From positions 350,491 through 414,490 of the forward strand of contig JADNYJ010000016.1 in the NCBI GenBank assembly GCA_015501075.1: 64,000 nucleotides of DNA. The letters run 5' to 3'. The stretch is from Gymnopilus junonius. Its lineage: Eukaryota; Basidiomycota; Agaricomycetes; Agaricales; Galerinaceae. The position numbers and the translations under genes are program-made. Shown here piece after piece: positions 58,264-64,000 of this stretch (the stretch's first letter is position 1; each line of letters opens with the position of its first letter). Under the pieces are notes generated by a model. That model did not search any database. It worked only from the letters and a program-made list of their open reading frames with translations, and was not told where the DNA came from.

Positions 58264-60085
58264 CTAATTCAAATTGCTTCCAGAATAACGGTTTACAGAA
58301 TAATCGTTTCCACTGTTCGTGATAGTGACAGTATGGACATTTCCGCTATTCTGGTTAATTACCTGGACCGGCCCACCTCCGAGAGATATGCCGCTATGCG
58401 AGACGTTACTCATCGATGGAGGTGTATAACCAGGATGCATATTTGGTAGAACATGGTAATAAGGAGAAGGAATCAGTTCATTCTGTAGCGATGAACTGCT
58501 GTGGTTGAATTGGTTCCCCTTGGGATCTGGCTTCGGAGACTTCTCAGAAACTCCATATCGTTCTTCAAGCCTGAGTCCTTCAAGATCCTCGGGAGGAAGG
58601 CCGCCATACCCTATTTCGAATGAAGGATTTTTACGAGGACTACGATCCCTGGGCTTTGGTTTCGCCTTGCCCCTTTTAGGGCTTCTGCCGGTCCTCTTCT
58701 CCCTCTCCTCTGCTTCCCACTTGCGTTGTTCAATTACAGCAACGCTCACCGCTACTTCTTCATCCTCTTCCGCGAATTGTCGTTGGAAGTCCGCATGCAG
58801 AGCAGCAGCCAATCTTTCATCCTCCTCGATTTGCGATTTACTCCTCGCGTGACTTGAAGGACGATTTATAGTCTTTTCTAGATTTCCAGGTTGCCTTTGG
58901 AACAACGCTAGTGCTGTATACGCGGTGGATGCGTTTGTAGAATGCACTTCATCGATAGGGCTGGCTTGGGGAAGCTGAATGAAGTCTTGTTCGGATTTGC
59001 GCCAGCGTTCCCTCTCTGCCAACTTTTTCACCCTCTCATCCTCAAGCCTTTTCTTCCTCTTAGCTTCAGCCTCAATCCTTTGCCTCTCTTTCTCATCCTC
59101 ATTCCGAGTCACGGATGCCGATAAAACACTCCGCAGATTTTGTTGCTGGGGTTGCGGCTCAGGAGTTCCGGTTCTCGAAGGAGGATTTTTCGTGTTGGGC
59201 AGGGCATTCAACGTTGGCAGCAGCTTTAGCGGCTTCTCGTCTGGCAGTTTTGGAGGGGCGGGAGGTAGCGAAGGGGAAGGAGTAACAATCACAGGAGGCG
59301 GATATCGGACAGGTGTTAAGGGCCTTCCTGCCTCGAGAAAGGTTTGAGCTATGAACTCCTTTGGTTTCTTTTCCCTCTGTTCAAGCCTGCGAAGCTTTTC
59401 GTCGATAACTTCCTGCAGCACATCGTGGATGGATGTTTCGGTGGATTGCTGATCATAATATGAGCCAATTGTTCCTTTACCCATTGCCGATATTAGGGAC
59501 TTACGCCAAACTTACTCATCCATATCTTCAGCTGTTGGCGATAGTTATCGACCTTTTCTTCATCAGCACTTTGTTTGATAATTCGCTTTATGAGTTTTCT
59601 ATTGGCCTTCTTCTCGACGAACCCTGCGATACTCTGCAATGTCCTGGCTGATCCTTTAGCTTCAATGACAATGATCAAATAAAAGAACAAGCAACCTAGA
59701 AAGCTCGCCGCTGTTGATTTTCATCTGATCGAACACGCTTCCGTCCCTCTTTGACTCTTCCTCGCATTGGTTGATCACAATGTAAACTAAGCCTAAAGAG
59801 TCGAGGCCGAGAGCCACAAAATCATCATCAAGATCTCCGTCCTCTATGCCCTGAAGTACAAGATCAAAAGTATTTGCCAGTGCATGGGGGGAGCAATCAT
59901 ACCTGGATGATAGCAAGAATGGTGAGTGCATTAGACGAAGCTTCTTTGAGAAACAATAATTGCTCCAAGTTGCCGACATTCTTCAAAGCATTTATGACAG
60001 CCTTTGTGGTCTCGAGTCGATTAGAGGTGGCCGCAATCCCAGCCGGGATTTTACTATGGCGTTTATTCTCCTTGCCTTCAGGCAT
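58264..60085 (-). CDS. Protein with HeLo/MLKL-NTD-like helical bundle and Asn-rich beta-prone tail
   Basis: The ATG at 60085 is followed by helices that resemble the four-helix bundles of fungal HeLo-like and MLKL-N-terminal-like domains: TTKAVINALKNVGNLEQLLF, LKEASSNALTILAIIQ, GLVYIVINQCEEESKRDG, SIAGFVEKKANRKLIKRII and EEKVDNYRQQLKIWMSKFG. In relatives such bundles insert in membranes and trigger cell death. A long charged, Pro-rich middle follows with a coiled coil (ERQRIEAEAKRKKRLEDER). The last 43 residues are Gly/Asn/Ser/Thr/Val-rich (GGGPVQVINQNSGNVHTVTI, TNSGNDYSVNRYSGSNLN), like an amyloid-forming signalling tail. Introns: GTATGA...TTCAG after IIQ, one after GELSR (join off by one), and GTAAGT...ATCAG after KFG. 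Domain assignment is by pattern only. Confidence 0.6.
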
Positions 60086-60494
60086 ACTCCGATTCGACTA
60101 TCGAAGAGAGGTGATCTTGCTTTTAGCAACTCTGGTTTAAGGGCGGCCGGGAGCCGTTATGAGTTGTACGCTGTGGTGAAGCGGATGTCATTACAAGGCA
60201 ATGTCAACCTTAAATACATCAAGGACTCAAGTGTGTTATAATTATGACAGCGTACATATTGTGCCCGTATAACCGTTAGCACCGCCTTCGAACCTTGTGC
60301 TGTTCTTGTGTTACATGTCCTCATTGTTATGGTAAACAGACCATCAAATTACGGAGTAAGTAGAAGGGCATAATCGCATAGGAACAAATTTACAGAGTAC
60401 AGAGCACAGTAGAGCAACAGCAGATAGCGACGACGACATTACATATACAGCAAACCCTCTCTCTTAGGCAGTTGATGATATCTAGAACATGAGT
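60086..60494. other. Spacer between two same-strand accessory genes
   Basis: About 410 bases holding the promoter of the 58264-60085 gene and the 3' UTR of the 60495-62257 gene. No element stands out. Confidence 0.45.
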
Positions 60495-62257
60495 TCATTT
60501 TCGGCGAGAGAAAAGACCTCGTTTCTTCGCAGGTCTCCTTGCTTCAATCTCTAAGATATTATCAGAACTGTTGGATAAAGAGGAACAGTGTTTGGACTCA
60601 CGTTCTTCCGCAGTGTTCACATTAGTAGATTTATCGTTGTATGAATCCTGCACGACTGTACTGTGAGTGTTGAAGGATCCGATATTCGTGGTGTTGACAC
60701 TATAGTCGTGCGTTATGTAATTTCCACGAGTCTCCGTCAAGGCAGAATTGCCTTGAAAAGCGGAAGGTGGAATACCCCAAGCGTGAGGGACTTCGGACGA
60801 AAGCAATTGAGGGGATACTTGGGGTCTCTGATCAGACTCAGGCTCTGAGGGCGGCGGAACATGAGAAGGAGGAGAATTGCCCAAGAAAGGCTCTTTCAAG
60901 TGCTGAGGCAAGTCCCGGGCACTACTTTCAGCTTGACGAGGATCGGCTTGCGGTCTTTGGTCAGATGTCGACGGTGGTGGGGCATAAGGGTAAGGATTCG
61001 CGATAAAAGGTTCTTTCAAGCGCTGAGGCAAGTCCTGGGTACTTGCAGTTTGACGAGGATCGACATGGGGTAAGGGAAGGTCAGACGAAGTGGTCTCAGT
61101 TGGCTGGGGCAACTGAGGGTCAGATTTATTGAACGAGAAAGCAGGACGTAGTTCGTCGTTGAGTGAAAGATTGGCCATGCGGTTGGTGACAGGATCATGC
61201 ATTCTCTTGTCCTCTTCCTCCTCTTCCTCCTTCTCCTCGGCCTGCTGATCTTCTGGTCCTTCTTCCTGTGGTTCCCATCCTTGTTCGCGTGCAATCTGCT
61301 GGAACATCGCCGAAAGATGTTCTCCCACCAAGGGGCTAAGGTCTCTACGATCCCCTGGTGCCAAAGTGGCGTTATTGTATGTACCTGGTGGGTACCCATT
61401 CACACCTATTGGCGGCGGAAACCTGAATGGCTGTACCCAAATCTACCAAACTGGGGAGTGGGCAGAGGGTTCTGATTATAGGAATTGACAGGAGAGCGGA
61501 AGGTGTGCGGGATATAATTTAACGGGTCAGATGCGTCATTTCTTCCTTGGAACGCTGTATTACCCGTCACTAACCATAAAGAAAAGTTAGAGAGATAGAT
61601 TTTTAATCACAGTATGAATAGTCTTACTTTGTGGACTAGGGGCCGGGTCGATTGCTGAACCATGACGTGCATTGGCTGGACGGACACCTGATTAAGTTCA
61701 GTATAGCTTAGTATCTACATCAATAGAATAGAGTACCATAGTTCGTTGAGTAGTTATTGCGAACGTTTCGCACATCGTTGTGAGTGGTATTGAGGGAGTC
61801 ATAGTTCTGGGTACGACTTCCGGGTGGGAGATATTGAGGATGCAATATCGGATTTGGAGCTTGCGGAGGAATGTATTCTTTGCATATGACAAACTGAGAT
61901 TGAAATGGCTCTACAGCAGGCTTTAAAGTATACCTTGGAAGGTCCTTGTGTCCGATCGCCCTTGATCTCGTTGGGAAGTTCGTTGCAGTCGAGGTATTTG
62001 CCTCGGGTCGACGTTATCTATCAGATAGGGACATGAGTACACGAAGTCAGGTTTTACACGGGAATTTACTAACCGAGATTGGTGGAGTAATTATTGTAAG
62101 CATCCTGCGTCCTCCTAATCGTGGTATTGCCTGAATTTATGTTCGAATGATGTCGGCTATTGTCATATACAGTCTTGTTCCCGTTGTGCACGCTGAAGCT
62201 TCCACCTGTGATACTGACGTTGCTCGCACCCTGAAAGAAACTAACGTTGGAAGCCAT
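60495..62257 (-). CDS. Protein with GGxF-type N-terminal motif and Asn-rich tail
   Basis: The ATG at 62257 starts MASNVSFFQGASNVSITGGS. The FxGAxNVxIxGGxF pattern is, from memory, common at the N-termini of mushroom NLR-like and related proteins. Exon 1 ends in NNYSTNLG and a later exon in NNYSTNYG, each just before an intron donor (GTTAGT and GTACTC), a duplicated element. The last exon holds an acidic run (about 61205-61260), two copies of a DLPQxLKEPF repeat, then GNYITHDYSVNTTNIGSFNT and a basic end (RPAKKRGLFSRRK) at 60495. The CCC at 61436-61438 lacks one base; another exon join near 61890-61930 is off by one. Total is about 460 residues. No catalytic domain is visible, so it may act as an adaptor or scaffold. 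Confidence 0.6.
60840..61066 (-). repeat. Tandem in-frame repeat coding DPRQ...DLPQxLKEPF units
   Basis: Two diverged copies of about 130 bases encode DPRQxxSxxDLPQ(R/H)LKEPF(I/L)xN followed by a Pro-rich spacer and DQRPQ. They lie in the last exon of the 60495-62257 gene and suggest a repeated binding segment. Confidence 0.75.
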
Positions 62258-62906
62258 GTTGGTGGAGGAAAGAGGGAGGTTGAGTGAGAAGGGTTATAAG
62301 CGCCGTCTCATTTAAGTAATACAGGCATTGCTTTCAGAGAAGCGACGAGCCACTGCATCACGAGGTTGTGACAGTGCGGGAACATGAGAACAAAGGGACT
62401 CGAGGTAGGTAATAATTGTGCACTGCTTTTTATAATTTTTTGGGTATGATCGGCCTCGACTCGGGTTCGGTAGATTCTCCACAGAGCGTGTACTTTCGGA
62501 GAGTTCGTATAATAGACGCAGGTGATCTGGGTTCGTGGTATTTGTACTAAGGAAACAATGATAACAGGTCGGACTGCTGCGCCATGATCATGATCAACTT
62601 TCTTCTCTGTCACACTAGGAATGGGTAAGCACAGCCTAGATCTCAGCCAAGATTAAGCAACTAAAAAGAGGCTCAAAAGTTAGAGCAGTGTCATCTAATT
62701 ATCAGTAGAAGCACTGACCAGGCGAAAGAAGGTCCGTTCTTTCCTTCAGACATGCAAGATCTGTTAACGCTGTTACAGATCAAGGATAAACTCGAAGAGT
62801 GGGGCAAGGTGCAGTGAACAAGAACCATGTTAATTCACGTGTATTTAATACATACCAATCCAAGATCGTCCGTGTTGATATGGTGATACGCATAGAAGGA
62901 ATGTGC
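62258..62906. other. Spacer with promoter of the GGxF-motif gene
   Basis: About 650 bases. No coding sequence supported. It holds the promoter of the 60495-62257 gene and the 3' UTR of the EI24-like gene. Confidence 0.45.
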
Positions 62907-64000
62907 TTACTCTTGCTTGAACGAACCGCCGTGAAGCCGCTCCTGTGCAATATGGTGCTGCCTCTTTTCAAGATCTAAGTATAGAGTAAAGACCGGCCTT
63001 AAGAAACTCATCAAAGACCGAACGTACCATGAGCCCACATAGCGGCGCCAACACGATTCGAGACAGTGAAAAACAAACCAATGATGGGTATACTTTCAAG
63101 AAGGGCCGCTACAAACCCGAAAGCTTAGAAAGAAATGTCAGAACGAAAATAAACTTTAGATATGAAATGCATTTTCCTACCTCGGTAATCCCACTTACGC
63201 TCTTCCATGAAAACAAAAATCTGTGGCCTGGTCATTTTCTTCGATTCAAAATACTTAGGGAGGAAGATGTCAGGTATATACAACTAAAGGAACGATTGAA
63301 GCATACGCGTCGATGAAGGAAGCGGGACGTTCCAAGAGCCTTGAACCACGCAGAAACCGTCAAGCCGACAAAGGGGTAAATTTGGAAAGGAGCAAGTAGC
63401 ACTGGAAAACAAAACCGATCAAAGTATCAGCGATAACATCGAAATAGATATTTTGGATACTAATATGCACATACCTTTCTTGACAATAAATAACCCAAAC
63501 CATCCGCCCAACGACCTATCCACAAACTTATCCCAAGGTGTCTGCGTTTCAAGGTTTGGAAGGTTATCCCATTCCTCAACGTAGGGTTGCCAGAAATCCT
63601 GGCCTTTCCCACGAGATGCGAGGGTCTGGTCCCATGCCCTGTCGCGTGCGAGGCGGATATTTTTGCTTAAAAAGAAACGCAGGATGTAGGTCGCTTGGGA
63701 ACCTATCATCATTATGGTTGCATCTAATTCAATTCAAGCAAGTCAGATGAACGAAGGGTGCAGGATTCAGCGCGGCTCACACGTGTAAAGACTGAAAGGC
63801 ACCTTGAACCCGAATACCGTGTCGTCGCGCGACAATCCAGTGATCCTTGGCGAGCTGCAGACAGTAAAATGAAAGCAATTAATAAAAATACAAGTATTGG
63901 GAACAGCCAAGGAGGTACCAACTTTGAAAGAAATGTCTCTATGAACCTCCTCTGAATCGAGAACGTCAAAAACGCCTGGCATGCATTGATTCATGTTTCA
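62907..64000 (-). CDS. EI24/Lds-Rrt8-like integral membrane protein, 5' partial
   Basis: The gene enters from the right edge. Readable exon pieces in order are: HWIVARRHGIRVQGAF, SQATYILRFFLSKNIRLARD, RAWDQTLASRGKGQDFWQPY, VEEWDNLPNLETQTPWDKF, LLAPFQIYPFVGLTVSAWFK, ALGTSRFLHRR, YFESKKMTRPQIFVFMEERK, FGFVAALLESIPIIGLFFTV, SNRVGAAMWAH and DLEKRQHHIAQERLHGG, ending at the TAA at 62907-62909. Introns are GT-AG. The pattern AALLEsIPIIGLxFxxSNRVGAAMWAHDLEKRQ is typical of fungal EI24-domain proteins related to yeast outer spore wall/lipid-droplet proteins Lds1/Lds2/Rrt8; the mushroom role is unknown. The exon boundary near 63720-63790 is unclear, probably from a missing base. Confidence 0.75.

Follow-up and report, generated by a model that had tools for sequence, protein, structure and literature searches.

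Two adjacent genes of the agaric Gymnopilus junonius, here called gene A and gene B, are read as a candidate amyloid-type immune pair in which A would be a membrane-acting effector and B an adaptor carrying two kinds of assembly motif. This reading is tentatively preferred at slightly less than even chances, with the assembly, the killing and the contact with a receptor all predicted. The genes lie in a 64,000-nucleotide stretch (the window; positions 1-64000 are positions 350491-414490 of contig JADNYJ010000016.1, C68 below) at the end of a contig of 414,490 bp in an assembly of 58 Mb, and the contig stops 1.7 kb upstream of the gene B start codon. A first-pass annotation had observed two neighbouring genes on one strand, and they do form a tandem pair, head to tail on the minus strand with B upstream and a gap of 409 bp; the helical region of A, the Asn-rich tails and the N-terminal GGxF of B that it described are likewise all present. 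The features are as follows.

58264..60085, minus strand: gene A, 553 amino acids; exons 60085-59903, 59850-59696, 59643-59505 and 59448-58264
59368..60043, minus strand: predicted MLKL-type helical bundle of gene A, about residues 15-186, with three introns within
58267..58416, minus strand: C-terminal tail of gene A, residues 504-553 (SMSN..SGISLGGGPV..NSGN..GNDYSVN), kept in the A family
58291..58356, minus strand: 22-amino-acid core of the NSGN motif of gene A, including DYSVN at 58291-58305
60495..62257, minus strand: gene B, about 494 amino acids in six exons, from splice enumeration and the homologs P0005 and P0006
62073-62018, 61933-61878, 61736-61688, 61627-61570 and 61489-61431, minus strand: introns of gene B, the last uncertain
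62168..62242, minus strand: GGxF motif at the N-terminus of gene B, SFFQGASNVSITGGSFSVHNGNKTV
62078..62143, minus strand: repeat 1 of gene B, NINSGNTTIRRTQDAYNNYSTN; a training row of the repeat profile, aligning to repeat 3
61741..61806, minus strand: repeat 2 of gene B, NYDSLNTTHNDVRNVRNNYSTN; a training row, matched genome-wide by the tail of a gene A paralog (E 0.0013)
60621..60686, minus strand: repeat 3 of gene B, NIGSFNTHSTVVQDSYNDKSTN; a training row, matched genome-wide by the N-terminus of P0005 (E 9.4e-5)
60693..60707, minus strand: DYSVN of gene B, outside the repeat that aligns to the DYSVN of gene A

The evidence that carries this reading begins with a motif shared by the two proteins. 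Gene B holds three copies of a 22-amino-acid NSGN-like repeat, at its N-terminus, in its middle and at its C-terminus, and an alignment of the profile of the A tails to that of the B modules over 21 columns gave P 2.3e-5, with 0 of 200 column shuffles as good, which upholds the first-pass claim of a C-terminal motif common to the neighbours. A profile built only from B-family repeats (7 rows) was searched against 5,048 six-frame open reading frames from the window and 40 loci, and ranked the gene A tail fourth (E 0.12), with only the three repeats used to train it ahead. Under this profile no shuffled version reached the score of the real tail, out of 5,000 made from the gene A tail (4,960 reported) or 5,000 from a Galerina tail (4,864 reported). 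Four effector tails were used as whole-genome queries (P0008, C212, C59 and C50); three match the gene A tail (E 2.8e-5, 0.0068 and 0.012), and the tail from C212 finds the middle repeat of gene B (E 0.0013) as well as the gene A tail (E 0.0068). Under a profile made from effectors only, the B proteins P0005 and P0006 score above all reported shuffles.

The shared unit is this NSGN repeat; the five-residue word DYSVN, proposed in the first pass as the common core, was rejected as such, the two words being out of register and at non-homologous positions. DYSVN ends the repeat of gene A and precedes the last repeat of gene B, and the register partner of the gene A word in gene B is NDKSTN or NNYSTN. 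Twelve genome occurrences of its codon pattern encode DYSVN, two of them at the A/B locus; the word was present in 5 of 8 other loci fetched and within such a tail in 0. The pattern, which admits other residues at the third place, is not commoner than its reversed control (27 versus 50).

The NSGN tail is a property of a wider effector family. A protein search returned 11 A-family homologs (one from Gymnopilus, four from Galerina, four from Agrocybe, one from Crassisporium and one metagenome protein), and the tail consensus SGSAISLGGxP..NxNSGNVxxTxIxNxGNDYS was drawn from 11 sequences, namely gene A, C723 and nine homologs; P0004, P0010, P0012 and P0013, which have eroded tails, were left aside, as was P0007, being the C723 gene itself. 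When 14 sequences are compared, those with eroded tails among them, pairwise identity averages 0.47 for the helical part, 0.30 for the linker and 0.42 for the tail; in gene A the C-terminal motif follows a variable, charged and proline-rich linker. The tails have conserved glycine and asparagine positions and an alternation of polar and hydrophobic residues. The N-terminal half of the tail, SGSAISLGGGP (window 58364-58416, and in the Galerina tails too), is also conserved; neither B nor the NOD-like receptor (NLR) motif offers a counterpart to it that passes controls. Three Galerina A-type paralogs, P0010, P0012 and P0013, each listed with a contig of 1,322,501 bp, have eroded tails, suggesting that the motif was lost after duplication.

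Within the G. junonius genome the NSGN tail occurs at nine loci, C68 (gene A), C723, C98, C848, C86, C212, C59, C50 and C680, with a diverged form, NARNITNTVIKNSFNTYT, at C848 and C86. Because C723/C98, C848/C86 and C50/C680 are near-identical pairs, these represent about six different NSGN-tailed genes. A profile of the A family with the paralog on contig C268 finds helical exons at eight of the nine loci (C212 at E 2.3e-8, C50 at E 6.7e-4, C680 at only 0.024). The recurrence expected in the first pass therefore holds for helical-bundle genes, at other loci and in other species; for NLRs it does not, the NSGN motif not having been found in the 30 NACHT loci described below. The locus C98:52203-55470 (L052) is a copy of the C723 effector in which the tail lies about 2.6 kb past the helical exons, as if an insertion of DNA had split the gene, and in the C212 effector gene the reading frame of exon 2 may be broken.

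The helical domain of gene A is related to MLKL through an intermediate. No direct match to the Pfam MLKL, HeLo or HELL models was obtained at E up to 10 with the N-terminal piece of gene A, nor with those of its homologs P0003 and P0004 or with the C723 paralog, in searches where the HMMER filters dropped most weak matches; the direct profile match envisaged in the first pass is thus lacking. Genome searches using family members found paralogs of gene A, and the A-family profile aligns to the paralog on C268 over 165 columns (P 1.4e-16; score 104.6 against 24.5 for the best of 60 shuffles, 0/60 as good). For the C268 paralog in turn, Pfam MLKL_N gives a match at E 5e-4 that falls short of the curated threshold. 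Intron positions in A, C723, C848 and C268 correspond, by eye, and fall between helices. For the Galerina paralog P0008, AlphaFold2 run on 15 sequences predicts a helical domain with confidence; its best natural fold matches, the Cbl four-helix bundle and the executioner domains of MLKL, rank behind four designed helical proteins, and unrelated helical bundles reach similar Z values. Foldseek alone returned nothing under E 0.001 with the P0008 model, its list being led by unrelated coiled and designed proteins, and the structure of gene A itself, predicted from a four-row alignment, has a mean predicted local distance difference test score (pLDDT) of 46.7. Given the sequence chain from A through C268 to MLKL_N, with the fold only as consistent support, gene A is classed as a BaMLKL-type effector, which bears out the MLKL-type helical effector proposed in the first pass. 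An assignment as a phosphopantetheine-binding protein (PF00550; E 0.0011 with the N-terminal piece of gene A, short of the cut-off) was rejected; the segment lies within a predicted helix, and among the homologs the match falls to E 0.036 in P0003 and is absent from P0004. PF17111 (PigL_N) gave no match.

The N-terminus of gene B (SFFQGASNVSITGGSFSVHNGN) resembles the N-termini of NLRs of the same genome. Among 30 loci read out of 47 NACHT matches in the genome, 11 carry [ILM]xGGxF on the NACHT strand, 260-292 bp ahead of the match (L030/L031 and L033/L041 being near-identical pairs among the 11), compared with 1/30 downstream and 0/30 and 0/30 at two opposite-strand positions, so that GGxF stands as an NLR N-terminal motif, as had been supposed. 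Comparison of the B modules with ten GGxF NLR N-termini gave P 1.4e-5, with 0/200 shuffles as good; this P value is flattered because the rows were chosen by GGxF, a bias of which the positional control is free. Gene B is the only protein found with both motif types. Two more non-NLR genes begin with GGxF of the SFFQGANNVSISGG type, at C679:166890-166964 and C892:35156-35248 (L010, L055; L011, L056). Words of the form YDNDDRS or YDNDNHS occur later in these genes; no repeat was picked out in them by the B or NSGN profiles, and the one tested against Pfam had no match.

The gene models behind these comparisons come from splice enumeration. The four-exon model of gene A matches the G. junonius NCBI protein CPB84DRAFT_1844194 at 100%. 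For gene B, the 494-amino-acid model with the last intron at 61489-61431 aligns better to the two homologs than a near-equal model of 493 amino acids (698 versus 659, and 341 versus 325). These homologs are P0005, a frame of 463 amino acids, and P0006 of Galerina, a model without its N-terminus; as the contig holding the P0005 frame is no longer than 1,553 bp, this frame perhaps derives from a spliced transcript. When used as a genome query, the N-terminus of P0005 matches both the first exon of gene B and its C-terminal module (E 9.4e-5), and so the two ends of gene B are related to each other. In Galerina marginata, P0003 (an A ortholog), P0006 (a B homolog) and P0008 (an A paralog) are each listed with a contig of 3,629,680 bp, taken as one and the same, and in Agrocybe pediades an A ortholog and an A paralog have consecutive locus tags, D9613_004579 and D9613_004580. 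The 5' neighbour of gene B is an EI24-type membrane protein gene (window 62900-63700, minus strand; Pfam EI24, E 7e-10; exons joined by eye).

The first pass had cast gene B as the receptor half of a HET-S/NWD2-like pair. This role is not sustained, since no nucleotide-binding domain was found in B and the genome NACHT search lists no NACHT in the window. Against Pfam at E up to 1, hmmscan gave no NACHT or NB-ARC match in gene B, the best being SPAN at E 0.22, and no enzyme or receptor domain was found there. Of that earlier interpretation the effector half, the shared motif and the presence of GGxF on NLRs stand, and B as receptor and DYSVN as core fall. In known fungal systems the pore-forming helical domain is followed C-terminally by an amyloid motif, and an NLR bears a related one (PMC9815663, PMC10197012). 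The effector half of the locus fits these systems and the NLR half does not. The economical reading is a relay running from a GGxF-bearing NLR to gene B, with its GGxF end and NSGN repeats, and from there to gene A and its NSGN-tailed cousins. Under this relay the NSGN motifs of A and B would most likely stack as a cross-beta polymer of the amyloid-signalling kind, and the polymer would cluster the helical bundles and switch them to membrane attack. Gene B would be a nucleator or an adaptor: NLRs with GGxF would recruit it through its own GGxF end, and its NSGN repeats would template gene A along with the genome's other NSGN-tailed effectors. The broader claim that gene B is the first of a new class of immune component, a two-motif amyloid adaptor linking many GGxF NLRs to a set of NSGN-tailed MLKL-like killers, is doubtful.

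Several results weigh against the relay. In the 30 NACHT loci read, nothing ahead of NACHT on the expected strand matches the NSGN profile, and the N-terminus of gene B as a single genome query reaches no NLR. A direct kinship between the A tail and the NLR GGxF motif was rejected, as 48 of 200 shuffles were as good in the profile comparison. On the effector side, the tail-bearing gene at C59 has no helical domain within about 3 kb upstream under the profile of the A family and C268. The tails of P0008, C59 and C50 as whole-genome queries do not match gene B, a Galerina B repeat as query matches gene B alone, and the effector-only profile gives the Gymnopilus gene B a weak score.

The main rival, somewhat unlikely, makes gene B a stand-alone regulator of A in a two-component system that involves no NLR, with B as inhibitor, decoy or nucleator, GGxF as another self-assembly segment, and activation through a changed dose of B or an incompatible B allele. 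That A and B are immediate neighbours and that B has three NSGN-like repeats would suit such a system, as would the lack of a listed NACHT in the window (on this contig, which breaks off 1.7 kb upstream of B, the closest one listed lies some 73 kb from gene A), the dissimilarity between the A-tail motif and NLR N-termini, and the failure of the B N-terminus to find an NLR. It is countered by the GGxF of B, a motif placed just before NACHT in the same genome, and by the NSGN effectors C723 and C98, each lacking a gene-B-like neighbour within the surrounding 9 kb that were read. A further alternative, improbable, holds that the tails are non-amyloid homotypic oligomerisation elements, such as a beta-solenoid or a trimeric beta-roll, forming a complex that need not kill. 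The only match of the A family among PDB profiles, a trimeric autotransporter adhesin in the tail region (E 0.79, not significant), points this way, together with the polar/hydrophobic alternation and conserved G/N positions of the tails; against it, the motif sits where known amyloid signalling motifs do (PMC9815663), on the C-terminal side of an MLKL-like domain and separated from it by a variable linker. Least probable is that the Asn/Ser/Thr/Gly-rich tails are alike through composition or local gene conversion between the neighbours and share no function, an idea that the asparagine content, the out-of-register DYSVN match and the several negative A-B comparisons would favour and that is opposed by the failure of composition-matched or column shuffles to reproduce the match, by the higher score of the Galerina A tail than of the Gymnopilus tail under the B profile (22.2 versus 16.2 bits, the profile including one Galerina B row) and by the genome-wide match to B of a tail from another contig, C212.

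The relay with gene B as adaptor can be set beside described systems. The first pass held that such motifs would be new in basidiomycetes; this overstates the case, since Wojciechowski et al. 2022 (PMC9815663) had already proposed amyloid signalling linked to NLRs in Agaricomycetes. According to the text of that survey, just a few of 500 BaMLKL homologs have motif-like fragments, in no case with a similar one in a neighbouring NLR, and its Table 1 gives the motifs NLR05/08/22/29/44 with 0 neighbours and 0 effectors (PMC9815663). The G. junonius locus resembles the BaMLKL systems as presented there in having an agaric stand-alone MLKL-like domain with a C-terminal amyloid-like motif and many short motif-bearing NLR N-termini in the same genome; it differs in that the neighbour is a non-NLR protein with both motif types. 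NSGN or GGxF may overlap motifs of that survey. With HET-S/NWD2 of Podospora anserina, as outlined in PMC9815663 and PMC10197012, the locus shares adjacent genes, a helical domain of pore-forming type with a C-terminal motif, and a related motif on the partner. It differs in that B has no detected NOD or WD domain and has three repeats plus a second motif; kinship of the gene A tail with HET-s was rejected, the tail having no sequence match to solved HET-s structures and none to any Pfam family. The RIPK1/RIPK3-MLKL necrosome uses RHIM adaptors. It has in common with the proposed relay an MLKL-type executioner (MLKL with RIPK3, PMC10197012) below an amyloid platform, and a partner with more than one assembly segment; here there is no kinase, and the motif is on the executioner itself. 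A literature search found, among the papers listed, no adaptor like gene B, and no paper treating G. junonius together with NLRs, or functional amyloid of mushrooms together with NACHT and heterokaryon incompatibility.

Basidiomycete NLRs average 83 per genome (PMC10197012), and in this genome many begin with GGxF. For its commonest basidiomycete NLR motifs the survey had neither a neighbour nor an effector (PMC9815663, Table 1). One locus that unites an NLR-type and an effector-type motif with an MLKL-like effector makes it directly testable what such NLRs target. If the relay is true, it would suggest that fungal amyloid immune relays can use a separate adaptor, beyond the direct NLR-to-effector templating of ascomycetes; and if GGxF is also among the common basidiomycete NLR motifs of the survey, this would explain the effector counterpart missing for them in its text (PMC9815663).

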